A DNA stretch of 64,000 bases, taken from contig NZ_CP092713.1 of NCBI RefSeq assembly GCF_023983475.1, forward strand, positions 1 through 64,000, written 5' to 3'. Made by a program: the position numbers and the translations under genes. The notes beneath the pieces were generated by a model. The model was not told where the DNA came from, ran no database searches, and worked only from the letters and a program-made list of their open reading frames with translations. Of the stretch, positions 26,751-50,031 are shown one piece after another. Source of the DNA: Aliivibrio fischeri ATCC 7744 = JCM 18803 = DSM 507. Its GTDB lineage: Bacteria; Pseudomonadota; Gammaproteobacteria; Enterobacterales; Vibrionaceae. Every line of letters starts with the position of its first letter. Within the stretch, counting starts at the first letter, position 1.

Positions 26751-26820
26751 CGCTAATGTTTTTTTTGAAAAAAATTTTTTATTCATTCCTTCTATTATTA
26801 TTGATTTCCTATGGACTCAT

Positions 26821-26852: not shown

Positions 26853-26872
26853 TCTTTAAACTCAATCAAAAA

Positions 26873-28498: not shown

Positions 28499-28744
28499 AA
28501 TTCACGACCTTTGGATTAATTTATATTTTTATTGTCATTATTTTTATTAGGTATCTGACAAGGGCGCGGAAGGTATACGAAATGATCATAAAAGTACATC
28601 AAATTATAAATATGATAAATATCAATAATTACAGCAAATTAGGGGTGGATATTAATCCAGTTAAGGCATTGAGGCAGGCTTGTAAAAAATGTGAACAATT
28701 TATCATATCGAATATAATAAATTATCCACTTTAGATAATATAAT

Positions 28745-28800
28745 TGTGAAATTACTTTTTTTAAAGCTCAAAAGTCAAAATAATAACGTCAAATAAAATT
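28745..28800 (-). pseudogene. fossil of the nfeD 3' end upstream of paralogue 2
   Basis: Minus-strand sequence GACGTTATTATTTTGAC continues into TTAAAAAAAGTAATTTCAC and an AAAGTGGATAATTTATTATA block. It matches, in order, the terminal codons of nfeD (GATGGTATTATTTTGAC), its AAAAAAATAATTTAAC tail and the AAAGTGGATAATTTGTTGTA block downstream of nfeD. The gap 28499-28818 otherwise holds only AT-rich DNA. Confidence 0.6.
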
Positions 28801-28818
28801 ATATCCATTATTATATAG

Positions 28819-30069: not shown

Positions 30070-30305
30070 AATTTTTGTCCATTGAATTAACTTATAATTA
30101 TTTTTATCGCCATAGCTATATTCTTTGGCTAGGATGCAAAAAGTAAAATAAAAAGGCACAAAAGTACATTAATTTATGAATATATGAATGCAAGATAATT
30201 ATATTTGAAACAAAGAAATATCTTTCACAAAGAATATGTGAAAAAAGTGAATAATTCATTGCGGTTAAATACAACAAATTATCCACTTTAAATGAAAATG
30301 TTAAA

Positions 30306-31818: not shown

Positions 31819-31852
31819 AATAAGGCTACCTCATAAAGATAGCCTTATTGAT
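31819..31852 (-). terminator. iutA-side terminator, now displaced by the IS
   Basis: AATAAGGCTA and TAGCCTTATT form a 10-bp stem with an 11-base loop. TTTTTATTAA follows on the minus strand and GATTTTATTTA on the plus strand. In the uninterrupted locus it would lie a few dozen bases after the iutA stop; a 1310-bp IS now separates the two. Confidence 0.75.
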
Positions 31853-31867
31853 TTTATTTACTGTCTC

Positions 31868-31896
31868 GTCCTGAAATGTGTTTACACATTTAGGAC
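31868..31896 (+). promoter_or_regulatory. fold-back hairpin over the IS left end and orfA ribosome site
   Basis: GTCCT-G-AAATGTG pairs with CACATTT-AGGAC around a TTTA loop: 12 pairs with one bulged G. The 3' arm contains the AGGA ribosome-binding site of orfA (ATG at 31903). The 5' arm overlaps the terminal inverted repeat, so only transcripts entering from outside can fold it. The same hairpin exists in copy 2 at 48725-48753. Confidence 0.65.
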
Positions 31897-31902
31897 TTTT
31901 AT

Positions 31903-32301
31903 ATGACAAATCAAGAAAAAACAAAGAATAAGCGAACTCAACGCGATTATTCATTAGGCTTTAAATTGCAGCTTGTTGCCGCTATAGAAAAAGGCGATAT
32001 GACCTATAAGCAAGCTCAAAACATTTATGGCATTCAAGGTCGATCTACCGTACTTACTTGGTTAAGAAAACACGGTAAGATGGACTGGTCTCAATCACCT
32101 AAGATTATTATGCCTAAATCCCCGAAAGCGAAAGAATCGCCTGCACAAAAAATTAAACGTTTAGAGCGAGAGCTTGATGATGAAAGAATGCGTAATTTAT
32201 TACTTAATGAAGTAGTGAATATCATGGACGCAGAACATGGTGCAGGCCTTAGAAAAAAGTATATTGCCAAGGAGCAAGAAGTCTTCAAAAGCAGAAAATG
32301 A
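31903..32301 (+). CDS. IS3-family OrfA (helix-turn-helix subunit), copy 1
   Basis: A 132-residue basic protein with an N-terminal helix-turn-helix of the transposase_8 type (YSLGFKLQLVAAIEKGDMTY, then a recognition segment GRSTVLTWLRKHG). A leucine-zipper-like coiled coil near residues 80-105 (IKRLERELDDERMRNLLLNE) is used for multimerisation with OrfAB. AGGA precedes its ATG. Its stop overlaps the orfB start in ATGA. Confidence 0.92.
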   Translation: MTNQEKTKNKRTQRDYSLGFKLQLVAAIEKGDMTYKQAQNIYGIQGRSTVLTWLRKHGKMDWSQSPKIIMPKSPKAKESPAQKIKRLERELDDERMRNLLLNEVVNIMDAEHGAGLRKKYIAKEQEVFKSRK

Positions 32302-33131
32302 TCAGCTTAGAGCGAGCTAGTCAGCTACTTGGCATTACAAGACAATGTATATACCAACAAGAACGTAGAGCTCTGAAACGTGCCGTTGAACTTTCACCGG
32401 TTAAAAATATGGTGCAAGAAATTCGTCGATATATGCCTCGTATTGGAGGTAAAAAATTATATTTTTTACTTAAGCCCAAATTCATCACTCATGGCATAAA
32501 GTTAGGCAGAGATAACTTTTTTTCCTATTTAAGAAATGAGTGCTTATTAGTAAAACCTAAACGAAGTTATACAAAAACTACCTATAGTAAGCATTGGATG
32601 AAAAAACATCCTAATTTACTTAAAGAAGTAACACCTCAAGCATCTGAAGAGGTTTTTGTTAGTGATATCACTTACGTTCAATCACAAAAAGGTATTCATT
32701 ATTTATCTTTAGTAACAGATGCTTATAGTCGAAAGATAATGGGATATGAATTAAGTGATGAAATGAAAGCTACTGATGTAGTCAAAGCTCTTGATATGGC
32801 GATAGATAGCCGTCAATATCAAAGGAGTACGATTCATCATTCAGACCGAGGATTACAGTATTGTTCAAAGGTTTATCAGGAAAAATTGAATAAAAATGAT
32901 ATTAAGCCATCAATGACGGATGGTTATGATTGCTATCAAAATGCATTAGCAGAGCGAATAAATGGGATACTTAAACAAGAGTTTCTTTTGTATGACTGTA
33001 AAGATTTAGAGGAGTTAAGGCATTTAGTTGAAGAATCTATTTTTATTTATAATGAAATGCGGCCACATTTAAGCTTGGGAATGAGTACACCAAATCAAGT
33101 ACACAAAAAAGCCAAGTGCGTACGCACTTAG
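32298..33131 (+). CDS. IS3-family OrfB (DDE transposase), copy 1
   Basis: A 277-residue integrase-core protein. The DDE triad is visible: D in VFVSDITYV, D in IHHSDRGLQY and E in NALAERINGILKQE, the last about 35 residues after the second Asp. It lies in the -1 frame relative to orfA and starts with the ATG of an ATGA overlap. It could therefore be made by reinitiation, by a -1 slip at the AAAA just before the stop to give an OrfAB fusion, or both. The frame is intact, so this copy is potentially active. Confidence 0.93.
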   Translation: MISLERASQLLGITRQCIYQQERRALKRAVELSPVKNMVQEIRRYMPRIGGKKLYFLLKPKFITHGIKLGRDNFFSYLRNECLLVKPKRSYTKTTYSKHWMKKHPNLLKEVTPQASEEVFVSDITYVQSQKGIHYLSLVTDAYSRKIMGYELSDEMKATDVVKALDMAIDSRQYQRSTIHHSDRGLQYCSKVYQEKLNKNDIKPSMTDGYDCYQNALAERINGILKQEFLLYDCKDLEELRHLVEESIFIYNEMRPHLSLGMSTPNQVHKKAKCVRT

Positions 33132-33185
33132 CTTTCAATTAAAAATCGTCAACGTATTTTAGGACGAGACATACAAAAGAATCAG

Positions 33186-35360
33186 TTAGTAAGTCACTTG
33201 GTAGTTAAGAGTGTAGGTGCGGCCACGACCTTTATAATCATATGCAGCTGCATCATAATGGCTAGAATATAAGATCTGAGCTCGTTGTCCCCAAGCCGTT
33301 GTATAATCTTTATTAAACAAGTTTTGAATACCAAAACCTAAACTTCCTACTGGCAATTCATAACTACCCATTAAGTCAAACACGGTATAACCAGATAATT
33401 CATTATCACTTGAATCTTTATAATCGAACATAGTTTGGCTTTGAACTTTTAGCGCCAAATCAGATTCATACCAACCAACCCAGGAGTTTGCTTTAGATGT
33501 ACTTGCCTCACCCGCACTTAAATCGTCCCATTTCCCATCCGTTTGTAATTCTGAAATAACATAATGACCAGAAGCCCCTACTTGAAGGTTATCCATCACC
33601 CAATACGATACTAATGCTTCAGCACCGTAAACTCGTTTTTCATTATCTACATCTTCAATTAACAACGTTTTCTTATTGTATTTAACTGAATTATCCGATT
33701 GAGAAAAGTACGCCGCAGTTTGAAAACTCAAAGCACTTTGATCAGTTCTAAAACCAACTTCATAGCTGTTTGTTTTTATTCCTGACATTTTAGAACCAGC
33801 AACATTAATGCTATTTTGAAGCGTATAATGACCATTTGCATCCGCTGCAGAATACGAACCTTGTCCATAATATTTAGCAGGGTCAGCCAAATCAAAACCT
33901 TGAGAGAAATTCGCCCATATTTGTGATTCTGGAGTCAATTTATATATCGTGCCAAGGTTAAATAAACCAACGGTATAATCTGTCTCACCTCCAGGGACGG
34001 CATCAGCTGAAACACCATTTCCCGCAGCAATTTTCTTTTGAATCTTATAATCGACAAAATCATCGATCTTATTATTCATATATTGATAACGATAACCGCC
34101 CTCAATAGACCAATCATCAGTGATATTAATATCGGCTTGAATAAAACCAGCAACAGAGCCAACTTCTACGCCTGGATAGCGCCCAACTTTTGCATACGTT
34201 TTATTAACCAAATTTCCAGAGTTATTGGCAATTGTTGGATCAAATAAAGCCTGATTACTATCAAACTTATCCATGTACGCATCAACACCATAAACCAAAT
34301 TCACTTTTCCAAATGATTTCGCAAGTGCTGTTTTTAAAGAGATAACATCCGTCGTTTGCTGAGAGGCACTTTGATAATATGGCGTATAAGTTTGATCTTC
34401 TTTACGATAAGACGCCTCTACAACTAACTGGTGACCTAACACTTCTGAATCACTATAAGCAGCACTTAACATAATACGTTCAGTACCATGTTGGCGATCC
34501 GACTCAAACCCTTTTCTTACATCAATAAACTTATAATTTTTAATGTAAAGACCGTAAGGGGAGTCTTGTTGGCTATCATAATATTGAGCTAAAAAATTGA
34601 TGTTCTTCGTATCAGAGATAGCGACATCTACCGTACTTTGTAAGTCAATTGTCTCATTATATTGTAATGAACCTTGAGAAATATCAGGCGTAACAATATC
34701 ACCATTGGCATCATAATATCCCTGAGTTTCAGTATATACAGCAGACACTCTCGCTTTTACTTTCTCTGTACCACCAGATATGGATTGTGCAAGTTTATAA
34801 TCGAAATCATCTCCGCTATTAAAGCCCGAACTGCCACTCACATAACTTTCAAATTGCAATTCATCACTGTCTGCTTTTTTTGTAATGATGTTAATTACAC
34901 CGCCAGTAGCACCCGCACCATAAATCGAAGTTGCGCCAGAGAGTACTTCAATTCGCTCAATATTAAATGGGTCAATCGCATCAAGCTGACGACTGATTGG
35001 GCGAGAAGATTGCAACGAAACACCATCAATCATCACAAGCATTGCACGGCCACGTAAATTTTGACCGTAATTGGTTCTTGCACCACTACTTACATCTAAG
35101 GATGGAATCGTCGTTGCCAAAATCTCACCCAGTGTTTTACCACCACGGTATTCTTGTTCAATTTGCTCCGAATCAACAAACCATACTGTTCCTGGAATTT
35201 CACTGATAGCTTTAGGTGTCCGGCTTGAAACAACCACCATGGTTTCTTCAGTTGTCGATGTATATTCCTCTGCCTGAACTGACATAGCAGCACTCGTCGT
35301 TGCAACAGCGACTGCCATTGCAACTAAAGTTAACGGATAATTCCCTTTTTTAACGTTCAT
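33186..35360 (-). CDS. iutA: ferric aerobactin TonB-dependent receptor
   Basis: A 724-residue outer-membrane receptor: signal peptide about 1-30, TonB-box-like ETMVVVSS, plug to about 165 with TNYGQNLRGRAMLVMIDGV, SRQLDAIDPFNIERIEVLSG and GATGGVINIITKK, then the barrel ending in a terminal YTLNYQVTY strand. The plug segments follow E. coli IutA closely. It lies last in the iucABCD-iutA order, 93 bases after iucD. IS copy 1 begins 14 bases after the stop codon, between the gene and its probable terminator. Confidence 0.93.
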   Translation of the reverse strand: MNVKKGNYPLTLVAMAVAVATTSAAMSVQAEEYTSTTEETMVVVSSRTPKAISEIPGTVWFVDSEQIEQEYRGGKTLGEILATTIPSLDVSSGARTNYGQNLRGRAMLVMIDGVSLQSSRPISRQLDAIDPFNIERIEVLSGATSIYGAGATGGVINIITKKADSDELQFESYVSGSSGFNSGDDFDYKLAQSISGGTEKVKARVSAVYTETQGYYDANGDIVTPDISQGSLQYNETIDLQSTVDVAISDTKNINFLAQYYDSQQDSPYGLYIKNYKFIDVRKGFESDRQHGTERIMLSAAYSDSEVLGHQLVVEASYRKEDQTYTPYYQSASQQTTDVISLKTALAKSFGKVNLVYGVDAYMDKFDSNQALFDPTIANNSGNLVNKTYAKVGRYPGVEVGSVAGFIQADINITDDWSIEGGYRYQYMNNKIDDFVDYKIQKKIAAGNGVSADAVPGGETDYTVGLFNLGTIYKLTPESQIWANFSQGFDLADPAKYYGQGSYSAADANGHYTLQNSINVAGSKMSGIKTNSYEVGFRTDQSALSFQTAAYFSQSDNSVKYNKKTLLIEDVDNEKRVYGAEALVSYWVMDNLQVGASGHYVISELQTDGKWDDLSAGEASTSKANSWVGWYESDLALKVQSQTMFDYKDSSDNELSGYTVFDLMGSYELPVGSLGFGIQNLFNKDYTTAWGQRAQILYSSHYDAAAYDYKGRGRTYTLNYQVTY

Positions 35361-35394
35361 CTACTTTCTCTTTTTATATTATTATCACAACAAA

Positions 35395-35423
35395 TGAATA
35401 CGAATGATAAAAATCCGTATTCA
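35395..35423. promoter_or_regulatory. inverted repeat between iucD and iutA (Fur-like core)
   Basis: TGAATACG and CGTATTCA are perfect 8-bp arms around a 13-base AATGATAAAAATC centre that resembles part of a Fur box. It lies 35 bases upstream of iutA. It could be an iron-responsive operator giving iutA its own promoter, or an mRNA hairpin in the intercistronic leader. Tentative. Confidence 0.35.
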
Positions 35424-35453
35424 ACTATTTTTATAAAACCAAACTATAAAGAT

Positions 35454-36752
35454 CTACACAGTTGAGGGTTCGCACACCTTAGGTTCTGAGATCCAATCAA
35501 TCATTCCAGGGTTAGATGCAATGTCATATACCACAGTGCCTGTTAACTGATTAATAATACGAGCACTACGCCATGCCATTAGGCTCAGCTGGGGCTCTGC
35601 AATACCATGACTATGCATACCAGCATTAACAGCAAATATCTTGTTGTTCTTGCTGCCTTTCCATTTCAATTCAAATTCAGGCGTTAATTGATATCGACCT
35701 TGATCATCAAGATCCAACAAAGGAAGGATGGAGTTTAAACAAGCCGGATAAGGAGACTTAAAACCAGTCGCTAAAATGACAATGTCCGCTTGATGTATTT
35801 CTAACTGCTGGCTTAATGCATTATGAATACCTAGCGAAAATTCAAACTCATTAATATTCAATGAATTCATCGTTCTATGTGGTAATAAACGAACCCATTT
35901 ATCTTCTTTTAGTACATCAAAACGATGGTATAACTCTCGATATATGTCTAATAGTGCAAGTTGAGTTATGCCGTCTGAAGTGAGTTTTTGTGCCTCAATT
36001 TCTGATTGTTTAACATTAGGAGCCAAGTTAACAAACGCATTCACATAATCAGGAGTAAAAAATTCATTAGTAAATGATGCTTCGTCTAATGGTTGAAAAT
36101 TAGAGCGTCGTGAAACCCAATCTAATGAAGCAGGTTTACCCCATTTTTCTCGCAGTACATTTATAAATATATCTGCACCACTTTGGCCACCACCCACAAT
36201 CACAACACGCTTATTCGTAAAATCACGCGAACGTAATCCCATTTCCGCGGCATGAAAAACACTTGGACCTATATGTGGAACGGCACACTCAGGAATAAAA
36301 GGAACCTTACCAGTACCAATGCATAAGTTTTTCGCCTCATACACTCCATTAGTCGTTTGGATTTCAAACGAATCACCGTTAAATTCTACATTCTCAACAT
36401 GGGTTGAGAATTTCACGTTACTTAATTGCTGAGAAACCCATGCCAAATAATCTGAAAACTCATGACGACTAATACAACTTAATTCTGCGGATAAAAACCG
36501 ATAGAATTTCTTATTCTTCACTAAATAAGATAAAAAAGAGTAAGGACTTTCAGGATACACCGCACTAACTAAGTCTTTTAAAAACATCGTCTGCATATTG
36601 GTGTTATCAAGTAACAAGCCGGGGTGCCAAGCAAAAGACTCTCGACTTTCAAAAAAGGTCGCATTAATGTGTTTTTGAGGCTCCAAAAGCGACGCTATGC
36701 TTAAGTTAAAGGGACCAACACCGATCCCTGCCAAATCCAATCTGACTGTCAT
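35454..36752 (-). CDS. iucD: L-lysine N6-monooxygenase of aerobactin synthesis
   Basis: A 432-residue flavin monooxygenase that hydroxylates lysine to N6-hydroxylysine, the first step to aerobactin. The FAD motif (GIGVGPFNLSIASLL, residues 10-24), SFAWHPGLLLDNTNMQTMFL, the NADPH motif VVIVGGGQSGADIF (near 183-196) and the ATGFKSP motif near the C-terminus are all present. It lies 28 bases after iucC in the biosynthetic operon. Length matches IucD. Confidence 0.94.
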   Translation of the reverse strand: MTVRLDLAGIGVGPFNLSIASLLEPQKHINATFFESRESFAWHPGLLLDNTNMQTMFLKDLVSAVYPESPYSFLSYLVKNKKFYRFLSAELSCISRHEFSDYLAWVSQQLSNVKFSTHVENVEFNGDSFEIQTTNGVYEAKNLCIGTGKVPFIPECAVPHIGPSVFHAAEMGLRSRDFTNKRVVIVGGGQSGADIFINVLREKWGKPASLDWVSRRSNFQPLDEASFTNEFFTPDYVNAFVNLAPNVKQSEIEAQKLTSDGITQLALLDIYRELYHRFDVLKEDKWVRLLPHRTMNSLNINEFEFSLGIHNALSQQLEIHQADIVILATGFKSPYPACLNSILPLLDLDDQGRYQLTPEFELKWKGSKNNKIFAVNAGMHSHGIAEPQLSLMAWRSARIINQLTGTVVYDIASNPGMIDWISEPKVCEPSTV

Positions 36753-36780
36753 GTTATTATTTCTCCATTTAATATTATTG

Positions 36781-38547
36781 TTATTGATTTAAAGCGATGT
36801 ACAGTGGGTTATCTACCTTATCGTCCATATCTGGAAGCATACGAGAAGCACTCGAATCCGTACTATGTCGAAACTTAGCTAAATTAAGCCCTATACGTAA
36901 TATTCTGGGTTTAAACAGATCTAAACGTTCAAATCTGTCTTTATATTCAGGAGTCATAGCCATATAAGTGTGAACTCGTTGAGCAAGTACCTTATAAAAC
37001 TCGATTTCAGGCAACCCTAAAGTTTCGACAAGTGGCGAGATAAAGCGAAGAACCGTAACGAAATGACCTGTTTGCAAATCATGAATAATTAACTCTTCAG
37101 GTAATTTAACTGTCACTTCTTTAACTAAAGGAGCAAGGGTTTCTTGCTCTGGAATATCTCGCTCAACAAGGCGCATATCTCCCTGAAAATCCTTCAATAA
37201 AATGCGCTGTGGTATCCCATCTTCCATAACTAACGTTACGTTTTGCCCGTGCGCAATGAGGGATACACCATATTTACAGAGTAAGTGATAAAAAGGGATC
37301 ACAACGGCATCAAACAGCTTATCTAACCACGCTTCTATTGATAATCCAGAGGCTTGAATATACTCAGAAATCAGAGGCACACCAGATTCATCAGACTCCA
37401 TCAGTGCGGCCATTAATATCGCACTCTCATTTTCACCAAGTTTAGATTGCGCTGATTCTCTCCATATCACACCAAGCAATTCATGATAACGATAAGGGGC
37501 ATCTGTCAATAGCTTATAGTCAGCCTGAGCAACGAACCCTGCTGCTGGCTCTTGTAACACTTCGGCTTTTTTATCAACGAATAAAGGATCCGATTTAAAA
37601 ATAGAATCCAACCAATCGGATGCTATTGGCCCCGCAAGAATATAACGACCCGGAATACCACGATAACAAGAAGTATTCATGATTGTTAAAGGCAGTTTAA
37701 TATCATAGCTCTCTGGACGCGTTACATTACTCAACGTTCTAATTGATAATTGAGGTAAAAATTCATCTCCAAATTTCCCCAAGTAAACCAACGTTTTCTC
37801 AGCCATTTCTCTAGAAAATAGAATTGATAATTTTTGCTCCCACTGCCAAGGGTGCACAGGTACAAAAGTATATTCGCTACTATCAACATTAAATGACGAA
37901 AGCTGTGAATTCATAACATGAAATTCAGCATTACTCACCGCAGAAAGTACCAAGCATTTCCAGTCCACTTTGCTATTGGTCGCTTTCTCTAAAATGGATT
38001 CATGTACCGCAACCCAAGCTAACTGAAATGCTCGCTCAGCCTCTGGGGCGTATAATGAAAGATCTTGTGTTCCCCACCCTCTACGTCCCTTATTAAAAGC
38101 AAACTTAGGATGACCATTAAACAGAAGCTGCTGTTGTTCACATGATAAAAAAGCCAGCCCATTTGCAGAGATATTCATTTTACGCTGTGCAAGCTTGCAA
38201 TCACCTAACAAGGTGGCATTCAAATCTTCAAAATGTTCAGCTAACGATTCATCACCAATGTTAATAACACGCTGAACATCCATCATAAATTGCGTTGCTA
38301 ATACATCAGAATTCAGACTTTTCTGTTTACGAATTAACGAAGTCGGTTCGATAACTATTTGCCCCCAAATATTAGTTTTACCTAAGAATTGGTAACAAAC
38401 ACCATCATCCAGCCTCAATACATAGCCTTGGTTATTTTGCTCTATTTTAAACGCTTGTTCATAAGCTAACTCACTGATTAATTTAGCCACCATTTTACGG
38501 TTTGCCGCTGGCCAGTGAGTATGTAACGCAATTTGCTCCATCACCAC
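36781..38547 (-). CDS. iucC: aerobactin synthase IucC (NIS synthetase)
   Basis: A 588-residue NRPS-independent siderophore synthetase that condenses the second N6-acetyl-N6-hydroxylysine onto citryl-hydroxylysine to complete aerobactin. Family motifs are visible: a VHPWQWEQ sequence near 230, TSCYRGIPGRYI near 290 and the C-terminal FhuF-like half (LIAHGQNVTLVMEDGIPQRILLKDFQGDMR) with HGQN. The start overlaps the iucB stop by 7 bases. Assignment as IucC rather than IucA rests on gene order and sequence style. Confidence 0.92.
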   Translation of the reverse strand: MVMEQIALHTHWPAANRKMVAKLISELAYEQAFKIEQNNQGYVLRLDDGVCYQFLGKTNIWGQIVIEPTSLIRKQKSLNSDVLATQFMMDVQRVINIGDESLAEHFEDLNATLLGDCKLAQRKMNISANGLAFLSCEQQQLLFNGHPKFAFNKGRRGWGTQDLSLYAPEAERAFQLAWVAVHESILEKATNSKVDWKCLVLSAVSNAEFHVMNSQLSSFNVDSSEYTFVPVHPWQWEQKLSILFSREMAEKTLVYLGKFGDEFLPQLSIRTLSNVTRPESYDIKLPLTIMNTSCYRGIPGRYILAGPIASDWLDSIFKSDPLFVDKKAEVLQEPAAGFVAQADYKLLTDAPYRYHELLGVIWRESAQSKLGENESAILMAALMESDESGVPLISEYIQASGLSIEAWLDKLFDAVVIPFYHLLCKYGVSLIAHGQNVTLVMEDGIPQRILLKDFQGDMRLVERDIPEQETLAPLVKEVTVKLPEELIIHDLQTGHFVTVLRFISPLVETLGLPEIEFYKVLAQRVHTYMAMTPEYKDRFERLDLFKPRILRIGLNLAKFRHSTDSSASRMLPDMDDKVDNPLYIALNQ

Positions 38548-39452
38548 TGCTCCAAAAAGAATGCCTGTCTTTTAATCATCATTAATGCTGAGCGTTTATG
38601 AGGGAAATTAAATTCAAAACATTTTTTGTATCCAACTTCTTGTATGCGATTGAATAAACGGTGATTGTCCGCTCTTGGCTCCAATACAATTCGCTGAGTT
38701 CTCGCCTCATCAATAAAGAGGTAATGACTGATCGCTCGCATCCAACAATTAAAATACTCTGGTCCTCTAAATGCTTGCTCCCCCACCAAAAGATGAATCC
38801 CACGATCATAAGGTTGAACATCGTAATACGGACTTAATCTGTCTTCACTTACCCAATATGCTTCAACATAACCAAATGGTTCACCATTAAACTCACCAAT
38901 AAGAGGAATAATATGTGAGTCATCCAACCGCTCTTTAATGAATTCAGCCAACTTTTCATAACTCCATGCTTGCTCCCAGAAATTAGCAACTCGAGGATCA
39001 TTCATCCATGCAGTAAATCGCTCTAAATCCTTTTCAAGATCAAACACTCTAAAACTAATTTCTGCATCAATATTATGATCATAGCGTTGATACACTTTTC
39101 CTTTTGGCATTTCAGGGCGCAACGGATGAGGGCGGTACTGTAATAGTGTCTGAACTTCTCTCCAAGGAAACAGGGTAGAGGGTGAATGCAAATGCCATGG
39201 TTCAACTTGTTGATAAAACCCTTCTCTTGATAACCTATTTTGATAAAGGCTAGGAAGTGATTGAACCAATAGACTTGGTATCTCGGATCCAAAATAAATT
39301 TCAGAGATAATTGAGTTGGTACTAAAAATATGATCAATTTCTTGTAAAGACTTCTTGATAAGCTGAATGTCTTCAAGATCCTGATTTGAAACCGTAAAAG
39401 TGATTGTGGGGCTTGGCTCTACATTAAAAATGAGCGTTGTATATTTACACAT
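38541..39452 (-). CDS. iucB: N6-hydroxylysine O-acetyltransferase
   Basis: A 303-residue GNAT-like acyltransferase that acetylates N6-hydroxylysine with acetyl-CoA to form the hydroxamate. The C-terminal half has the family signature: WMNDPRVANFWEQAWSYEKL, GYVEAYWVSEDRLSPYYDVQ and GIHLLVGEQAFRGPEYFNCW, then VLEPRADNHRLFNRIQEVGY. The length is close to E. coli IucB (about 315). It overlaps both neighbours by 7-8 bases, indicating tight translational coupling from iucA to iucC. Confidence 0.93.
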   Translation of the reverse strand: MCKYTTLIFNVEPSPTITFTVSNQDLEDIQLIKKSLQEIDHIFSTNSIISEIYFGSEIPSLLVQSLPSLYQNRLSREGFYQQVEPWHLHSPSTLFPWREVQTLLQYRPHPLRPEMPKGKVYQRYDHNIDAEISFRVFDLEKDLERFTAWMNDPRVANFWEQAWSYEKLAEFIKERLDDSHIIPLIGEFNGEPFGYVEAYWVSEDRLSPYYDVQPYDRGIHLLVGEQAFRGPEYFNCWMRAISHYLFIDEARTQRIVLEPRADNHRLFNRIQEVGYKKCFEFNFPHKRSALMMIKRQAFFLEQW

Positions 39453-41220: not shown

Positions 41221-41252
41221 AACATTTCCGTTGTTTTTAATTAACGAATGCG

Positions 41253-41273
41253 AATGCTAATGATTCTCATTAA
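41253..41273. promoter_or_regulatory. Fur box upstream of iucA
   Basis: AATGCTAATGATTCTCATTA resembles the Fur consensus and lies about 33 bases before the iucA start codon, as expected for an iron-repressed aerobactin operon. The whole 41221-41368 gap is otherwise AT-rich. Confidence 0.7.
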
Positions 41274-41368
41274 AATGATCAACTGTTTTTTAACGAATTT
41301 ATAAAATAATTTGGATTTTGTGCTACACCATAAAAATATGTTTAATATCAATAATTAAAACAAGGATA

Positions 41369-43372
41369 TTACTTTCGCATTAAATATAAGAAGTAAATAC
41401 CACCAATTAATGATGCTAATAATCCTGCTGGGAATTGCCATGGAAACCACATCACTCGGCCTATCCAATCCGCTAAAATCATTAAACAACCGCCTAACAA
41501 ACTCGCAGCAATGAGTTGATGTGAAGCTTGATATTGATGAAGAGAGCGTGCCATGTGGGGAGCTAATAAGCCAATAAAACTAAGAGGCCCAATAATAATC
41601 GTACATAGCGTGGTTAAGGCGGCGACAAACAACAATAAAAACAATCGAACTCGGCGACAACATAAACCAACACTACTCGCTACTGTGTCTCCTAATCCCA
41701 TTAAATCTAGCCATCGATGAGATTTCATCGCGAAAATAAAAAACAACAACACCCCTATCGCAAGTAAATACACATCACTCATCGAGACTAAATAAGTTGA
41801 ACCTGACAACCAGGTTAATAGCGCTTTAACGTTATCTTGCCCTGATGATAAGGCAATTCGTAAAAACGCATCTAACCCTGCGCTTAAGGCTATTCCTGTT
41901 AGTAGCATTTGAGTTGGAGCAAAATGATGTTTTCTTCCCATAATCCAAATAACAAACGTGACGATTAATGCCCCTAAAGTACCCAGTAACATCTGTTCAT
42001 GCCTATCTATTGCAATACCAGAAACTGCGCCTAAAACTAATGCCAGTGCCGCACCAGAGCTAATTCCTAAAATCTCAGGGCTTGCCATTGGGTTCATTGA
42101 GACTCTTTGGATCACGGTCCCAGCAATGGCTAACCCAACCCCGGCTAAGAACGCAACAAATACCCGTGGTATTCTTAACTCGATAATGGATATGTCAAAG
42201 GCTACCGCCCAGCCAAGTTGCCCTTTTCCAAGTAGTACTGCTGCGATAAACAAAACAACAATCAAAAAAGACAATGGAACAACAACATGTCTAAGGCTTC
42301 TTACTCGATATACAATTTGCGAGGTTTCTCTCACCTTCATGTCTGACTGTAATTGTTGGCGATTTAATAACCATAATAAAAAAGGAGCACCAAGTAATGC
42401 TGTCATGGCTCCCGTAGGCAATAGCTCACCACCCACACCTGAAAATGGTTGTATAATTAAATCAGCAAATAAAAGCATTGCACTGCCAATAATGCCACTC
42501 ATTAAAATTTGATTAGGTAATCCTCTTGCACCGCACATTCGAGCTATTGCTGGAGCAACGATCCCGACAAAACCAATCAAACCAACTTCACTTACCACTG
42601 CTGCGGTAATAAATATAGCTAAGGTCAACGATATAACTTTAATCTGCTTTATATTAATGCCGATAGAGGAAGCTACATGATCACCTAATTGAAGTGCGGA
42701 CAAGGGGCGAGCAAGTAACAAGATCGTGATAACAGGAAAGGTAATCAATGGAATAAGCCTTGATACACTACTCCAATCATTTTGATTTAATGTACCCGCC
42801 CCCCATACAAATACACTAGTTAATTGTTGCTCATTAAGTAACAACAACATGGTATTTAAAGACCCAAAAAAAAGGCTAACAACCATTCCAGCTAGCACCA
42901 TATGAACTGGTGAAAAACCACGTTTTACCGACAATAAAAACACTAACCCGGTGGCAAATGCTCCGCCTAAAAATGCAGGAATAAAACCACTAATAGAACT
43001 ACTAACAGGTAAAAACAAAATACCAAGAACCATCCCCAATTCAGCTCCAGCAGCAACCCCTAACGTCGTTGGTGAAGCGATAGGGTTACGTAATACAAAC
43101 TGCATAACACAACCAGCAATTGCCAAACCAAAACCTGATAGCACAGCAATGGATAAACGAGGAAGATAAGTTAAATACGTAATTAATTGTTGATAATCAG
43201 ATGAATCATAATGAAATACGGTTTTCCATAATAAATCGATGCCTTGAGAATAAGGAGCCGTCCATTGCAATAAACTCAATAAAACAATACACATCAAGAC
43301 AATAATGCCAATATTTAGCCCTATTCTACTGCTACCTATTTTAGGCTTACCTAGTACTCTTGATACACGCAT
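41369..43372 (-). CDS. fhuB: FhuB-type double-length siderophore ABC permease
   Basis: A 667-residue inner-membrane permease made of two tandem FecCD-type halves, each about 330 residues. GFGLAIAGCVMQFVLRNPIASPTTLGVAAGAELG near residue 80 and GVGLAIAGTVIQRVSMNPMASPEILGISSGAAL in the second half are the repeated motif, as in FhuB. About 18-20 helices. It imports ferric hydroxamates with FhuC and FhuD. It lies 12 bases after fhuD and last in the fhuC-D-B operon, pointing the same way as the iuc operon. Confidence 0.93.
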   Translation of the reverse strand: MRVSRVLGKPKIGSSRIGLNIGIIVLMCIVLLSLLQWTAPYSQGIDLLWKTVFHYDSSDYQQLITYLTYLPRLSIAVLSGFGLAIAGCVMQFVLRNPIASPTTLGVAAGAELGMVLGILFLPVSSSISGFIPAFLGGAFATGLVFLLSVKRGFSPVHMVLAGMVVSLFFGSLNTMLLLLNEQQLTSVFVWGAGTLNQNDWSSVSRLIPLITFPVITILLLARPLSALQLGDHVASSIGINIKQIKVISLTLAIFITAAVVSEVGLIGFVGIVAPAIARMCGARGLPNQILMSGIIGSAMLLFADLIIQPFSGVGGELLPTGAMTALLGAPFLLWLLNRQQLQSDMKVRETSQIVYRVRSLRHVVVPLSFLIVVLFIAAVLLGKGQLGWAVAFDISIIELRIPRVFVAFLAGVGLAIAGTVIQRVSMNPMASPEILGISSGAALALVLGAVSGIAIDRHEQMLLGTLGALIVTFVIWIMGRKHHFAPTQMLLTGIALSAGLDAFLRIALSSGQDNVKALLTWLSGSTYLVSMSDVYLLAIGVLLFFIFAMKSHRWLDLMGLGDTVASSVGLCCRRVRLFLLLFVAALTTLCTIIIGPLSFIGLLAPHMARSLHQYQASHQLIAASLLGGCLMILADWIGRVMWFPWQFPAGLLASLIGGIYFLYLMRK

Positions 43373-43384
43373 TCGTTTTATCCG

Positions 43385-44278
43385 TTATTGAGTCAATTGT
43401 TGAGTTATATGATCACTGAAACGTTGTGCCGAAATTAACCCACCAAAAGTCCAAATAGCAGGAAGTTCATAAACTGAACCGGTACGTGTAAATGCCATCG
43501 CTTGCCACAAGGCGGATTGAGTCAGTTTTACTTTCTCTTCTTCCTTTAATGGACCAAAGATAAGCACATTCGCTTGTTGATATTGCGCGAGTTTCTCAAT
43601 ACCTGCGGTCGTGAATCCCCATAAATTTGTCGGTTCATGCCAAGCGTTTGTTAACCCCATAGCATTGATTGTCGATTGTGCTAATGATCCCTCACTATGA
43701 ATACGAACGGTTTTGTCATTAATAAAACGAACAAAAAGCAGCGGCTTTTCTTGTTGTTGCAAGTGTCGTATTTTGTCGCCATTCTCAATCAGTTTTTTTT
43801 CCGTTTGGTCGATCAATTGTAACGCTTGCTGTTCTTTATCCAACAAACGGCCTAACTGAATAGTTATGTCTTTCGCAGCAATTAATGGCGATTTTTTATT
43901 GCTATAGACGGTATAAACCAAAGTGGGAGCAATCGTGCTTAATTTCTCATACATCGCACTCATGTGCTGACTAATCAAAATAACATCAGGGTTCAACTCT
44001 GTAAGCAACTCTAAATTTGGCTCTCGTCGTGAACCTACATCCAATACGTTCGAAGGTAACTTAGGAGCCATCACCCACGCTTGATATCCTTTCGCATCCG
44101 CAACGCCCAATGGTTCCACTCCCAAACTTAAAACGGTTTCGGCTAACACCCAATCTAACGCTACAATTTTTTGTGGCGTAACCTCAACCTCTGTAGAGCC
44201 TAATTCGTGCTTAATCTCAATCGCTTGTGAAGACATAGCATATAGAGCCAACATAATCAGGCTAATCACTTTATGCAT
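43385..44278 (-). CDS. fhuD: FhuD-type periplasmic siderophore-binding protein
   Basis: A 297-residue class III substrate-binding protein: signal peptide about 1-19 (ending SSQA), two lobes joined by a helix, with PQKIVALDWVLAETVLSLGV, GSRREPNLELLTELNPDVILIS and the C-terminal VYELPAIWTFGGLISAQRFSD segment typical of FhuD. It delivers ferric hydroxamates, expectedly ferric aerobactin here, to FhuB/FhuC. AAGGAAA precedes the start. Confidence 0.9.
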   Translation of the reverse strand: MHKVISLIMLALYAMSSQAIEIKHELGSTEVEVTPQKIVALDWVLAETVLSLGVEPLGVADAKGYQAWVMAPKLPSNVLDVGSRREPNLELLTELNPDVILISQHMSAMYEKLSTIAPTLVYTVYSNKKSPLIAAKDITIQLGRLLDKEQQALQLIDQTEKKLIENGDKIRHLQQQEKPLLFVRFINDKTVRIHSEGSLAQSTINAMGLTNAWHEPTNLWGFTTAGIEKLAQYQQANVLIFGPLKEEEKVKLTQSALWQAMAFTRTGSVYELPAIWTFGGLISAQRFSDHITQQLTQ

Positions 44279-44316
44279 GTTTTGTTTTCCTTTTCTGATT
44301 ATCTTATTTCCATCAA

Positions 44317-45132
44317 TTAAGGGATGTAACTGATCACTTTCCCTGTATCAGGATGAGAAAATAACGCTAAATCCATACCGTAAATTTGCTTTAACGTTTG
44401 AGTATTCATCACACTCTCTGGCGATCCTTGCGCAATAACACATCCAGAATACAGAGCAATCAAATGATCGCTAAATTTCGCAGCCATATTGATATCATGT
44501 AATACCATAATGACGGTTAGATTTAGGGTTTGATTTAACTCTCTTATCAAGGCCAATAATTCATATTGGTGTGCAATATCTAATGCTGATGTGGGTTCAT
44601 CCAATAAAATACACTGACTTTGTTGAGCCAATAACATTGCAACCCAAGCCCTCTGCCTCTCACCACCAGATAATGTCGCGACAAAACGATCTCGAAATGG
44701 CGTCAACCCCACCTTTTCAATTGCCTCATCGACCAATTGATTGTCTTTTTTACTATAGCGTCCAAATGCTCCTTTCCATGGATAACGTCCAAAATAAACC
44801 AATTCACGAACCGTCACCCCATCAGTAATCGGAGGGTGTTGAGGTAAATAAGCAACCTGCAATGCAAAATCTTGCTGTGAAAGTTGGTTAATTGATTTGT
44901 CATCAAATAGCACATGACCTGATGACGGTGTATTTTGACGACTAAGTAATTTCATTAGTGTAGATTTGCCGCACCCATTGTGTCCTAAGAGCGTGGTAAC
45001 TTTATTGGTAGGAAAAGATAAACATGTAGGAGATAAAATTGTTTTTCCGTCGATTTCAAACGACGCATCGACAAGCTGATACATGAGGGTAATAAAATAA
45101 TCTGTCCATGAATGATGAGCAGACCTTAACAT
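44317..45132 (-). CDS. fhuC: FhuC-type siderophore ABC ATPase
   Basis: A 271-residue ABC ATPase: Walker A GHNGCGKSTL, Q-loop AYLPQHPP, signature LSGGERQRAW, Walker B CILLDEPTSALD and the switch His in VMVLHDIN. It powers FhuB. The frame opens at 45132 only 9 bases from a Fur box. ATG at 45084 (MYQLVDASFEIDG), where family similarity begins, may be the real start; neither has a good ribosome site. First gene of fhuC-D-B, divergent from the MFS gene. Confidence 0.9.
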   Translation of the reverse strand: MLRSAHHSWTDYFITLMYQLVDASFEIDGKTILSPTCLSFPTNKVTTLLGHNGCGKSTLMKLLSRQNTPSSGHVLFDDKSINQLSQQDFALQVAYLPQHPPITDGVTVRELVYFGRYPWKGAFGRYSKKDNQLVDEAIEKVGLTPFRDRFVATLSGGERQRAWVAMLLAQQSQCILLDEPTSALDIAHQYELLALIRELNQTLNLTVIMVLHDINMAAKFSDHLIALYSGCVIAQGSPESVMNTQTLKQIYGMDLALFSHPDTGKVISYIP

Positions 45133-45140
45133 AAAGAAAT

Positions 45141-45161
45141 GTTAATGATAATTATTTTTAT
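45141..45161. promoter_or_regulatory. Fur box in the fhuC / exporter divergent region
   Basis: GTTAATGATAATTATTTTTA is a good match to the Fur consensus. It lies in the 86-base gap between the divergent fhuC and MFS genes, so one site could repress both import and probable export. Confidence 0.7.
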
Positions 45162-45218
45162 TCACATATTTTAAAAAGTAAGATATAAAGAGCGAGACAT
45201 TTAAAACAGGAAGTTCTA

Positions 45219-46424
45219 ATGCCCTCTTTTTTCGACAAAAATACCTATGCATCAATTCAACTCATCATTATTGGGTTAATAGCCGCGCTAATGGGAATTG
45301 GGCAAAACGGCTTACTTGTCTCACTTCCATTTTTAGTCACTCATTCAGCTTTTGCACTACCGACGTGGTCAATTGTAATTGCAGTTGGTAGCTTTCTCTT
45401 TCTACCCTCAGCACCATTTTGGGGAAAGTACAGCGATAAAAAAGGCCCTAAATTTGTAGTATTACAAGCTCTATTTGGAATGAGCTTCAGTTTCTTACTT
45501 CTACTTACTTTTACATTTTTCAGTAATGATCATCCCAATTACGCTGGTTTTTGTTTGATCGGGTTGATTGTTGCGCGAGTAATCTACGGCTGCACCGTTT
45601 CTGGAATGGTTCCAGCTAGCCAGCATTGGGCCATTCTTCTATGTGGTGAGAATAATCGATTACAAGCCATTACATCCGTTAGCATTGGATTAAGTTTAGG
45701 CCGCCTTCTTGGGCCAATATTATCTATTCTACTATTAAAATCGGGGCCCTATTCACCACTAATTATGATGATTTGCTTCCCCCTTCTCGCTCTATTCGCC
45801 GCTTTTATGTTGCCAAGCCCATCGAAAATAAATAAACACAATAAATCGTCTCACCAAGTAAGTTCTTTTATTCCAAATGTAAGATTAATGCCCTACCTAC
45901 TCACAGGGCTATTCTTGTGCTTAACCATTGCGCTATTGCAATACAGTTTCTCGCCGTTAATTGAAGACATTACCCATTGGTCCACCAATAAAATCAGTGA
46001 TGTGATTGGAATACTATTAACCATTAGTGCAGCAGTGACCTTAATCACCCAAGTCTTCGTCATCAAAAAGAAAAAAATACAAATCACTACCATGTATTAC
46101 TTAGGAGCAATCTGCTTGCTACTGGGCTATCTAATATTCACTCTACATTCAATATGGCTATTAGGAATTGGAATGGCAATAACCGCCTGTGGAGCGGCCT
46201 TATTAGTGCCTGCCTATACAACAAAGGCCACCTCTATAGATAAAGATAATCCTGGTTCTGTGGCTGGCTATATATCCATGTCACACACTCTTGGTTACGG
46301 CATTGCTTCATTATTTGCTTATACTGCAACCATTTCACCGATTTACCCTATCTACCTTTGTATTCTATTTTCTGTAGGCATTTTAATCATTGCTTTCATG
46401 AAGCCTCAAATAAACAAGACATAG
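45219..46424 (+). CDS. MFS transporter, probable aerobactin exporter
   Basis: A 401-residue protein of the major facilitator superfamily with about 12 helices and a motif A version GKYSDKKGPKFVVLQ near residues 68-82. Its position inside an aerobactin locus, divergent from fhuC across a Fur box, suggests export of newly made aerobactin, as proposed for ShiF-type MFS proteins beside iucA in enterics. The export role is inference from context. ACAGGAAG precedes the ATG. It converges on fhuF with 15 bases between stops. Confidence 0.78.
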   Translation: MPSFFDKNTYASIQLIIIGLIAALMGIGQNGLLVSLPFLVTHSAFALPTWSIVIAVGSFLFLPSAPFWGKYSDKKGPKFVVLQALFGMSFSFLLLLTFTFFSNDHPNYAGFCLIGLIVARVIYGCTVSGMVPASQHWAILLCGENNRLQAITSVSIGLSLGRLLGPILSILLLKSGPYSPLIMMICFPLLALFAAFMLPSPSKINKHNKSSHQVSSFIPNVRLMPYLLTGLFLCLTIALLQYSFSPLIEDITHWSTNKISDVIGILLTISAAVTLITQVFVIKKKKIQITTMYYLGAICLLLGYLIFTLHSIWLLGIGMAITACGAALLVPAYTTKATSIDKDNPGSVAGYISMSHTLGYGIASLFAYTATISPIYPIYLCILFSVGILIIAFMKPQINKT

Positions 46425-46439
46425 CAAGGAGTACTGCAG

Positions 46440-47171
46440 TTAACGTTTATTATCCGGATGGCGAGGGCAATCTAGACATAATTTACGACCATCACATTTA
46501 TACACTAAACAACAACTGGTACGAACCAATCGAAGTTGCTCCGTGTTCGTATCAATCTGCAAGCTCAATAAATGCTTATTAGGTAATGAAAATGCCTCTA
46601 ACCAAAGCTTAGCCTGTTCAAGTAAATATTCGTTAGATAATGTAGGCAAGTAAGTTTGCAATTTTACAATGCAATTAAGCAAACCATCAGCCAATAAGTG
46701 ATTAGTAAAACCCGGTCTAATCCGAGTCCATTGAGATATATCTTCTCGATATGAAGAAAAAAGCTCACTCAATTGCTGAGCAACAGATGAAATCAAATCT
46801 TCATTAGTTCCAAACGTTAAATCTGAATGATGAAACGTATAACCCGCTACAAAATCACTCTTAATCTCTTGGCTCATTTCTTTAATATTAGGAAGCGCTC
46901 TAAGCTGATAAATGGATATAAATGCAATATACACAGGCTGCCAACACAATAAGTCCCATGTTCTGGTTAACCAATATGCACTACCAGCCTCAGGAGAAGT
47001 CTGAGATAAGCGTTCATAAAGTGCTTTTATTTGTTCGCCATTGTTTTTCGATATATGGAGGTGTGGATCTGCGTTATAGCACTCGGCTTGATGAGCTAAA
47101 TGCCCACTCAGATAAGGCGTAACCTCTCTTGAGGAGTGAAAAAGTAATTCAAAATATTCACTATTTTGCAT
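46440..47171 (-). CDS. fhuF: FhuF-type ferric-siderophore reductase
   Basis: A 243-residue protein with the FhuF C-terminal 2Fe-2S signature CC-x10-C-x2-C (C220, C221, C232, C235; SCCLVYKCDGRKLCLDC). FhuF reduces hydroxamate-bound ferric iron in the cytoplasm so that it is released from the siderophore. No signal peptide. It completes the aerobactin use pathway beside fhuCDB. A Fur-like box lies upstream. It points toward the MFS gene and has no partner on its own strand. Confidence 0.85.
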   Translation of the reverse strand: MQNSEYFELLFHSSREVTPYLSGHLAHQAECYNADPHLHISKNNGEQIKALYERLSQTSPEAGSAYWLTRTWDLLCWQPVYIAFISIYQLRALPNIKEMSQEIKSDFVAGYTFHHSDLTFGTNEDLISSVAQQLSELFSSYREDISQWTRIRPGFTNHLLADGLLNCIVKLQTYLPTLSNEYLLEQAKLWLEAFSLPNKHLLSLQIDTNTEQLRLVRTSCCLVYKCDGRKLCLDCPRHPDNKR

Positions 47172-47232
47172 ATGAAAAGTACAACACCAACAAATAAAGC
47201 AGAGGCGTTAGAATAATCATCAAACAGCAATA

Positions 47233-47251
47233 ATGCAAATAATTATCAATT
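47233..47251. promoter_or_regulatory. Fur-like box upstream of fhuF
   Basis: ATGCAAATAATTATCAATT matches the Fur pattern moderately and sits about 60 bases before the fhuF start, touching the end of the diguanylate cyclase gene. Confidence 0.5.
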
Positions 47252-48698
47252 ACAATTCAAACCTAACACAGTTACGGCCTGCTTCTTTTGCTTTATACAG
47301 TTGAGTATCTGCAATATTCAATAATTCATGAAGACTAGTAGTTAACTCACTCACTGTTGCAACTCCCATACTGCATGTCATTGATAATTCTTGACCATCA
47401 ACCAAAACAGAAAGAGCTCTAATCACATTTTGTAGACTTTCAGCAACCATCACGGCCTGCTCTTTATCTTTATGATGAAGAAGAACAATAAATTCATCAC
47501 CACCCAGTCGAGCGACGATATCCTCTTGATTAATTTGTGCTGAACACGCCTCAGAAAATGCAGTGATCATTTGGTCACCAACATCATGTCCAAATTTATC
47601 GTTATATTCTTTAAAATTATCAATATCGCACATGACCAACGAGAAAGTTTGCTTATCATATTGATACGTTTTAAATACTTTACTTGCCTGTTCTTCAAAG
47701 GCTCGGCGATTATTCACACCAGTAAGGTAATCATTATAAGCCAACTCGGTATACTTATCTTTTTGTGCGCTAGTTTTCTTTAAATAATTAAGATTAAACA
47801 ACAATAATCCGATAATTACAGTGAAACACCCAATAACAAGCATTAATGAGAGCGAAAATTTAGTTTGCCAATAATTTTGCTCTTTTGTTACCACCACAAT
47901 AAAAGGTAAGTCTTTAACCTTACGAGCATAAATCGTATCAAGTGTGCCATTCTCATAGATATCAGAAGACATAATCACTTCATTATCACGATAAAATCGC
48001 TCTAAAACACTCGGTTCAACCAACGATAAATCAATGCCTTTCCCTAACGGTAAATTACCTTTTGGTATCGCCGAAAGAAGTTTCATATTGGTGCTTAAAA
48101 TCGCGATACCCATTGAAGATGGAAGTTGTAAATGGCTTAGTGTTAAGCTAAAAAAATTTAAATTAGTAGAAAGACAAACAATGCCTTTTAGCTTTCCTTC
48201 ATCATCAATGATCTTTTTCCCATGAACGACAACATTTCGTCCAGCCAGATCGATAAAAGGCAAAGTTATTATGCTTTGTCGAGCATTGTTATTAAGTAAA
48301 GATTTACAATACTCACGCTCTGAAAGATCGATATTACGAAGTGTTTCGCTATGAGTTAACGCGCAAGATTCATCAACAACAAACGCCAATGTAGCATTAG
48401 GTAAGGCATCTTCTTTTTCTTTTAAATAAAACTGCTCAAGCTGATGTGTGATTGGATCATCTTCAATACGACTAGGACCAGATTCTGCCAAGTCATGTGC
48501 CATATCATTTAGCACTGCATCAGAATCTGAAAACGACTTAATTAACCATAGCTCAACAAAGCTCGCATTAAATTTTAAGCGTTCAACAACACGAGAGCTA
48601 TCTGTTTGATAAGAAGTGAAAAGATAAAATAAAGATAAGAAGAGAAGTAAGATCCCAATCGTCATTGAACTATAAAAAAAAGCACTTCGATTTTTCAT
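47250..48698 (-). CDS. membrane diguanylate cyclase with IS in its promoter
   Basis: A 482-residue GGDEF protein: helix 1 about 9-28, extracytoplasmic Cache-like sensor about 30-275, helix 2 about 281-303, GGDEF domain about 320-482 with RLGGDEFIVLL. The residues at the usual RxxD inhibitory site are NQED, so the product-inhibition site is absent. The native start is ATG at 48698 behind AAGGG; a longer frame begins inside the IS and is artificial. IS copy 2 lies 20 bases upstream of the ATG. A paralogue is at 53227. Confidence 0.88.
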   Translation of the reverse strand: MKNRSAFFYSSMTIGILLLFLSLFYLFTSYQTDSSRVVERLKFNASFVELWLIKSFSDSDAVLNDMAHDLAESGPSRIEDDPITHQLEQFYLKEKEDALPNATLAFVVDESCALTHSETLRNIDLSEREYCKSLLNNNARQSIITLPFIDLAGRNVVVHGKKIIDDEGKLKGIVCLSTNLNFFSLTLSHLQLPSSMGIAILSTNMKLLSAIPKGNLPLGKGIDLSLVEPSVLERFYRDNEVIMSSDIYENGTLDTIYARKVKDLPFIVVVTKEQNYWQTKFSLSLMLVIGCFTVIIGLLLFNLNYLKKTSAQKDKYTELAYNDYLTGVNNRRAFEEQASKVFKTYQYDKQTFSLVMCDIDNFKEYNDKFGHDVGDQMITAFSEACSAQINQEDIVARLGGDEFIVLLHHKDKEQAVMVAESLQNVIRALSVLVDGQELSMTCSMGVATVSELTTSLHELLNIADTQLYKAKEAGRNCVRFEL

Positions 48699-48759
48699 CT
48701 GACCCTTATTTGACGCTTTGTCTCGTCCTGAAATGTGTTTACACATTTAGGACTTTTAT

Positions 48760-49158
48760 ATGACAAATCAAGAAAAAACAAAGAATAAGCGAACTCAACG
48801 CGATTATTCATTAGGCTTTAAATTGCAGCTTGTTGCCGCTATAGAAAAAGGCGATATGACCTATAAGCAAGCTCAAAACATTTATGGCATTCAAGGTCGA
48901 TCTACCGTACTTACTTGGTTAAGAAAACACGGTAAGATGGACTGGTCTCAATCACCTAAGATTATTATGCCTAAATCCCCGAAAGCGAAAGAATCGCCTG
49001 CACAAAAAATTAAACGTTTAGAGCGAGAGCTTGATGATGAAAGAATGCGTAATTTATTACTTAATGAAGTAGTGAATATCATGGACGCAGAACATGGTGC
49101 AGGCCTTAGAAAAAAGTATATTGCCAAGGAGCAAGAAGTCTTCAAAAGCAGAAAATGA
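48760..49158 (+). CDS. IS3-family OrfA, copy 2
   Basis: The protein is identical to that of copy 1: 132 residues, N-terminal helix-turn-helix and a leucine-rich coiled coil. The ribosome site is in the arm of the fold-back hairpin at 48725-48753. The stop overlaps orfB in ATGA. Confidence 0.92.
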   Translation: MTNQEKTKNKRTQRDYSLGFKLQLVAAIEKGDMTYKQAQNIYGIQGRSTVLTWLRKHGKMDWSQSPKIIMPKSPKAKESPAQKIKRLERELDDERMRNLLLNEVVNIMDAEHGAGLRKKYIAKEQEVFKSRK

Positions 49159-49988
49159 TCAGCTTAGAGCGAGCTAGTCAGCTACTTGGCATTACAAGAC
49201 AATGTATATACCAACAAGAACGTAGAGCTCTGAAACGTGCCGTTGAACTTTCACCGGTTAAAAATATGGTGCAAGAAATTCGTCGATATATGCCTCGTAT
49301 TGGAGGTAAAAAATTATATTTTTTACTTAAGCCCAAATTCATCACTCATGGCATAAAGTTAGGCAGAGATAACTTTTTTTCCTATTTAAGAAATGAGTGC
49401 TTATTAGTAAAACCTAAACGAAGTTATACAAAAACTACCTATAGTAAGCATTGGATGAAAAAACATCCTAATTTACTTAAAGAAGTAACACCTCAAGCAT
49501 CTGAAGAGGTTTTTGTTAGTGATATCACTTACGTTCAATCACAAAAAGGTATTCATTATTTATCTTTAGTAACAGATGCTTATAGTCGAAAGATAATGGG
49601 ATATGAATTAAGTGATGAAATGAAAGCTACTGATGTAGTCAAAGCTCTTGATATGGCGATAGATAGCCGTCAATATCAAAGGAGTACGATTCATCATTCA
49701 GACCGAGGATTACAGTATTGTTCAAAGGTTTATCAGGAAAAATTGAATAAAAATGATATTAAGCCATCAATGACGGATGGTTATGATTGCTATCAAAATG
49801 CATTAGCAGAGCGAATAAATGGGATACTTAAACAAGAGTTTCTTTTGTATGACTGTAAAGATTTAGAGGAGTTAAGGCATTTAGTTGAAGAATCTATTTT
49901 TATTTATAATGAAATGCGGCCACATTTAAGCTTGGGAATGAGTACACCAAATCAAGTACACAAAAAAGCCAAGTGCGTACGCACTTAG
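49155..49988 (+). CDS. IS3-family OrfB (DDE transposase), copy 2
   Basis: The 277-residue protein is identical to that of copy 1, with the three catalytic acidic residues (in VSDITY, HSDRGL and LAERIN) intact. Absence of any difference suggests that the two copies are recent or kept identical by recombination. Confidence 0.93.
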   Translation: MISLERASQLLGITRQCIYQQERRALKRAVELSPVKNMVQEIRRYMPRIGGKKLYFLLKPKFITHGIKLGRDNFFSYLRNECLLVKPKRSYTKTTYSKHWMKKHPNLLKEVTPQASEEVFVSDITYVQSQKGIHYLSLVTDAYSRKIMGYELSDEMKATDVVKALDMAIDSRQYQRSTIHHSDRGLQYCSKVYQEKLNKNDIKPSMTDGYDCYQNALAERINGILKQEFLLYDCKDLEELRHLVEESIFIYNEMRPHLSLGMSTPNQVHKKAKCVRT

Positions 49989-50031
49989 CTTTCAATTAAA
50001 AATCGTCAACGTATTTTAGGACGAGACACTT

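Follow-up and report, generated by a model that had tools for sequence, protein, structure and literature searches.

The window analysed here, a stretch of 64,000 nucleotides from the genome of Aliivibrio fischeri ATCC 7744, contains an aerobactin locus lying between two copies of the same insertion sequence (IS), the left one at positions 31862..33171 and the right one at 48719..50028, both on the plus strand, 1310 bp long and without a single base difference. The gene nearest to the left copy, at 33186..35360 on the minus strand, encodes an iutA-like TonB receptor whose stop codon occupies positions 33186-33188. It is followed on the same strand by iucD, iucC, iucB and iucA (35454..41220) and by fhuB, fhuD and fhuC (41369..45132), of which fhuB and fhuD were assigned by family search and fhuC owes its name to its translation and to the preliminary description of this DNA. 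The remaining genes code for an MFS transporter (45219..46424, plus strand), a fhuF-like siderophore ferric reductase (46440..47171, minus strand) and a GGDEF protein, or diguanylate cyclase (47250..48698, minus strand). All these genes do lie between the two IS copies, as the preliminary description had it, with one correction: the GGDEF reading frame had been listed with a start at 48746, from which it extends into the IS, and the start matching that of relatives is at 48698, with the right IS copy about 20 bp upstream of it. Elsewhere in the window, positions 24786-30159 hold three tandem chemoreceptor paralogues, one of which (28819-30159) appears by eye to be short of much of the signalling domain common to the other two.

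Several features place the element in the IS3 family. Its OrfB (32298..33131 in the left copy, plus strand) is a transposase with an integrase-like rve domain, scoring 255 bits against NF033516 (cut-off 160) and matching also PF00665, while OrfA (31903..32301, plus strand) scores 40.6 bits, below the cut-off. OrfB overlaps OrfA in the -1 frame, which is the layout of the family, the frameshifting itself being predicted. The termini of both window copies, TGTCTCGTCCT...AGGACGAGACA, form the inverted TG...CA ends that are expected, and a short duplication of 3 bp accompanies 30 of the 33 full copies found in the genome, the three without it being L002, L011 and L027. Elements of the IS3 family transpose by a copy-out/paste-in route through a circular intermediate.

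How did an aerobactin locus come to lie between two identical elements? A composite transposon that carried the locus in would produce just such an arrangement, with its cargo flanked by identical direct copies, but we regard this origin as next to incredible and have rejected it. Each window copy has its own target duplication, as the preliminary description had reported: TAC at 31859..31861 and 33172-33174 on the left, CTT at 48716..48718 and 50029-50031 on the right, with no duplication shared by the outer ends. Two relatives, G003 and G002, moreover carry the presumed cargo in this very place, between qmcA and dbpA, and have no IS there; other relatives lack it. When the sequences flanking the IS are joined, they align to single, unduplicated target sites in G003 for both copies and in G002 for the right one. 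The independent insertion of the two copies into a pre-existing locus, which had been proposed from the duplications, is thus supported also by the empty sites and by the IS-free syntenic locus of these relatives. The composite reading is further opposed by the abundance of the element, of which 31 copies of 1310 bp are 100% identical across the genome (the other two being one of 1311 bp and one with 97% identity). Because of this genomewide identity, the lack of differences between the window copies says only that the burst of the IS is recent. Nor does the bracket call for a special event: of 20,000 simulations with random placement of 33 copies, 85% contained one or more adjacent direct pairs no more than 16.9 kb apart, and two such pairs are observed. 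The bracketing of the aerobactin locus by an IS pair is ordinary.

The distribution of the locus in the genus was followed in 14 genomes, including that of the window. The iut, iuc and fhu genes occur together in six of these; in G005, G006 and G011 the gene order on the qmcA side is the same as here and again free of the IS, as far as the compared stretches reach. At the corresponding site qmcA adjoins dbpA in G001, G008, G009 and G010, 1.4 kb separates the two genes in G012, and the GGDEF gene stands alone in G013; no close iucC was found in G007 within this comparison. G004 has kept iutA and the iuc genes, and no fhu genes turned up within the 15 kb next to its locus. According to the portions of PMC5812596 that treat the subject, three siderophore systems of Vibrionaceae, one of them aerobactin, go back to an ancient insertion, after which vertical evolution with extensive loss prevailed and some horizontal transfer took place, a mixture of vertical and horizontal descent being stressed for aerobactin itself. 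As to the IS, the nearest relatives by the genes compared have either no match (G003) or a fragment of 477 bases (G002). Isolated fragments of its right end occur in relatives without full copies, namely G006 (C1:39420-39497 and 2157272-2157418), G009 (C88:186796-186858) and G004 (C3:1163332-1163421); they may be remnants or small non-autonomous derivatives.

The observation and the inference of the preliminary description consequently stand, but it missed that the element enters its targets in a fixed orientation and beside terminators. When all 33 sites of the genome are aligned in the orientation of the IS, a stem is followed by a T-rich stretch and then by the left end of the IS. To count such structures we applied a strict hairpin test, demanding a stem of 7-12 pairs with at most one non-pair and at least four G-C pairs, a loop of 3-14 nt and an end lying 7-16 nt before the IS. 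The left flank passes in 26 of the 33 copies and the right flank in one, L002, where both sides bear hairpins; in the background, the test is passed by 1.4% of the 121,904 window positions and, among 16,837 intergenic positions, by 2.0%. The distance from the G-C-closed stem to the IS is 14 nt in 13 of these 26 hairpins, 13 nt in five, 15 nt in two, 17 nt in five and 18 nt in one, and 15 of the 33 sites lie strictly between convergent reading frames (80 aa or longer, as called). The copy on the left of the window locus fits this rule: its left end faces, across 12 nt, a terminator-like hairpin at 31819..31849 on the minus strand; this hairpin, found by a terminator scan and present also at the empty site of G003, presumably served iutA before the insertion. 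The right window copy, which has no hairpin passing the test, is one of the seven exceptions.

As control we took nine sites of different IS3 elements in this genome (a tenth locus, L164, was not included): the strict hairpin is present on the left of one, L172, and on the right of none, and a left stem visible by eye at L169 is too distant to pass. Seven loci, L167-L173 on contig C1, are near-identical copies of another IS3-family element, whose right flanks carry tandem heptamers with a unit that varies by site, for example (CCTGAAA)n, (CCTAGAC)n or (CCTAGTC)n; elsewhere such arrays number two in 464 kb of other sequence of the genome, window included. The heptamers may be the mark of another targeting preference, or the element itself may have produced them.

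The same preference is found well beyond this genome. Eighty relatives of OrfB were collected from gamma- and alphaproteobacteria, Bacteroidota and one Desulfobulbaceae MAG, several being metagenome bins; two of their loci gave no ends and ten more had no readable left flank, leaving 68, of which 60 show the strict hairpin on the left. Where both flanks are readable, the left one passes in 50 of 57 loci and the right one in none; the right flanks of L081 and L118 do pass the test, their left flanks being unreadable and the two loci hence outside the 57. One Salinivibrio genome has 16 loci and all 16 pass, and the spacing of 14 nt recurs in 30 of 59 hairpins of the relatives. The eight failures, counted as misses throughout, include visibly imperfect or displaced stems. 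A further set of 28 loci from plasmids and viral contigs, chosen as mostly more distant, gives counts that weaken the hairpin rule: left flanks pass in 10 of 21 readable cases and right flanks in three of 21 (L237, L238 and L241, which look like one site). In phylogenetic terms, a main clade (62 rows, support 100/99) is separate from a sister clade resembling ISSen1 (17 rows, 100/99). Within the distant set, two of the four readable loci of the main clade pass, the stem of L226 being too A-T-rich for the test and L231 of V. harveyi being a true exception, while in the sister clade seven of 13 readable left flanks pass. Most of the failing sites of the sister clade show G/C followed by a T-tract, and one, L235, has neither stem nor T-tract. 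The targeting rule is thus common to a large subgroup of the IS3 family, and it accounts for the place of the left window copy and, in a weaker form, for that of the right copy.

What the element recognises at these sites can be approached by comparing its targets. Comparison shows that the left end of the element comes to lie opposite a terminator-like hairpin, with 14 nt past the G-C-closed stem as the commonest distance, where G/C gives way to a T-tract. The reading that we prefer is that the transposase complex would recognise terminator DNA, stem and T-tract together; a T-tract boundary alone would be a less favoured target, of which the right window copy is an example. A simpler possibility, which we consider rather unlikely, is that only the linear sequence matters, a run of G/C and then a T-tract being read in duplex DNA with no part played by the stem. 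Indeed, G/C is frequent at positions -17 to -15 and T from -14 onwards, both in the sites of this genome and in those of relatives, and several sites devoid of hairpin roughly keep this register, the right window copy among them and likewise several of the distant set. We have examined this point with a position matrix trained on the 68 sites of relatives and with intergenic positions from 461 kb of control DNA matched for linear score: among 33 such positions 13.1 hairpins are expected, against the 26 seen at the IS sites (P 9e-9). This excess supports, short of proof, a part for the stem, since the matrix was learned mostly from hairpin sites, its top bins are small and some of the IS sites are not intergenic. 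Two sites, L020 and L019, combine a good hairpin with a very poor linear score, which also speaks against the linear sequence being all.

Recognition of the hairpin in DNA has also to be weighed against a coupling with termination itself, by which the transposase would be drawn to terminating RNA polymerase, or to the RNA hairpin, instead of a DNA structure. The insertion point would fall shortly past the expected end of the RNA, which favours such coupling; yet at L020 the element is found on the T-tract-less side of its hairpin, a place at which no transcript is expected to end, and we judge the coupling improbable. Far less credible still is that purifying selection alone has shaped the pattern, with random insertion and survival of the harmless cases at gene ends. 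Twenty-five of the 33 sites do lie outside reading frames of at least 80 aa, as called by script, even if L008 is inside a gene; selection leaves unexplained, however, both the fixed orientation (26 hairpins on the left, one on the right) and the spacing of 14 nt that is common to relatives.

Besides facing a host hairpin on its left, the element brings a hairpin of its own near its right end, at 33108..33135 in the left copy and 49965..49992 in the right copy, both on the minus strand. In the left copy its stem of 13 pairs is followed by six T on the minus strand, and it is predicted to terminate transcripts that arrive from the right, here from iutA; a consensus terminator scan did not list 33108-33135, though it found 31819-31849. 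Since alignment of the right ends with MAFFT left the stems unaligned, we relied on a count of stems over 41 distinct right ends from this genome and from relatives. A stem of at least nine pairs is present in 38 of the 41; in 20 shuffles such a stem arose in 2.0 of 41 on average and in 8 at most, and seven other windows taken from these elements gave 0-4 of 41. The 38 stems have 30 different left arms, every one of the nine outer positions is occupied by two to four kinds of Watson-Crick pair, and A before the hairpin exceeds T after it in 37 of 38, the reverse never occurring. The hairpin of the window copies overlaps the end of OrfB, so that coding constrains it too. These features indicate that the structure is conserved and not its sequence, and the structure looks like a terminator for transcription coming from the right. 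The left IS copy ends 14 bp from the stop codon of iutA, the duplicated TAC included, and separates this gene from the hairpin at 31819-31849; the hairpin of the IS now starts about 50 nt past the stop codon and may replace the terminator that the insertion has split off. With its T-tract reading leftwards, it would end transcription from a rightward gene such as iutA and would also keep antisense transcription out of the transposase gene.

The explanation that we favour, and to which we assign a probability of about 0.78, is this: a recently expanded IS3-family element has inserted independently, twice, into an older aerobactin locus; it targets terminator-like hairpins; the hairpin that it carries would end the transcription of the gene on its right; and its copies then act as direct repeats between which recombination may occur. 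A more general proposal, for which we see the odds as evenly balanced, is that a widespread subgroup of IS3 elements uses intrinsic terminators as attachment sites and exchanges one terminator for another. The host hairpin would be read as a DNA structure, and the element would enter in a fixed orientation and at a favoured distance from it; the gene on the left would keep the host terminator, the gene on the right would receive a replacement, and the insertion would be nearly silent. Copies would then pile up at the ends of operons, where recombination between them would delete whole operons. If true, this proposal offers a testable model of a transposase that recognises structure rather than sequence, it explains how some IS gain a high copy number at low cost and it leads one to expect that genomes of this kind lose each operon as a whole.

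Known systems resemble this one in part. Bacterial class C (group IIC) introns are described in PMC3522654, with a citation of Robart et al. 2007, as inserting downstream of Rho-independent terminators, and terminator targeting as such is therefore known. The likeness lies in the place of entry just past intrinsic terminators, predicted ones in our case (26/33 copies here, 60/68 in relatives). Group IIC introns, however, are retroelements with a ribozyme, whereas this IS has an integrase-like transposase, 3-bp duplications and an opposing hairpin of its own; among the reading frames examined there were only those of the IS3 transposase and no reverse transcriptase. Within the IS3 family, IS1397, ISKpn1 and ISPsy8 have palindromic (REP) targets, a likeness to the present element that is apparent from the relevant part of PMC1525189. 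Their targets are repeats of a single sequence family, while here the stems differ, by inspection, from site to site and entry is beside the hairpin. The nearest element with an IS name in the plasmid search belongs to the ISSen1 group of the IS3 family, with about 49.5% identity in OrfB; its ends and right-end hairpin are similar and it forms the sister clade mentioned above, with target hairpins that are less regular. We found no report of terminator targeting by an insertion sequence of this kind in the open-licence library searched, a scope outside which subscription journals and ISfinder fall.

The copies of the IS may also have acted as direct repeats in this genome. Their start-to-start spacing in the window is 16,857 bp, and the preliminary description had predicted that recombination between them would delete this segment in one step. 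Such recombination could indeed remove the aerobactin locus, as it may have removed two other blocks, at L027 and L011, which serve as possible precedents; no case at the aerobactin locus itself was seen, and in the 14 genomes of the genus no full IS copy was found in the relatives without the locus. In G003 the sequences that flank L027 are separated by 10.9 kb, and a wide separation is seen in G002, G005, G006 and G011 too. For L011 (C2:94100) the separation is 12.2 kb in G003; G002 and G011 likewise have its flanks apart, and G005 and G006 match a single flank. No near copy of the DNA missing at the two sites exists elsewhere in this assembly. On the lost side of L011, G003 shows an adjacent hairpin with T-tract, as would be needed if a second copy had once been there, the first ten bases of that side being unaligned and the match starting from the 11th; the lost side of L027 shows a weak linear motif only. 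Recombination between IS repeats may thus have eliminated two blocks of 11-12 kb, judging from genome comparison, and the gaps could also come from assembly collapse across the repeats. L027 may have an older history, because the stretch of G003 just past its kept site, on the left flank, resembles by eye the right end of the IS. At L002, the third copy lacking a full duplication, a rearrangement was considered and rejected, the flanks being only about 90 bp apart in G003.

The block missing at L027 (G000, C1:712675) holds in G003 a reading frame that by eye is like purL (1303 aa). Its absence implies either that the strain needs purines, a predicted auxotrophy, or that the assembly has collapsed between repeats.

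The preliminary description had also seen in the deletion of the aerobactin locus a route to siderophore non-producers. The loss of the whole system would have this effect, but iutA and fhuBDC would be removed as well, and the products would therefore be non-users rather than cheaters that keep the receptor. A different situation is visible in G004, where iucC is interrupted (L057, 10772-11810) by an element with two reading frames that by eye is like the IS630 family, while iutA is still of full length: an interrupted iucC with intact iutA represents a route to non-producers that retain the receptor.
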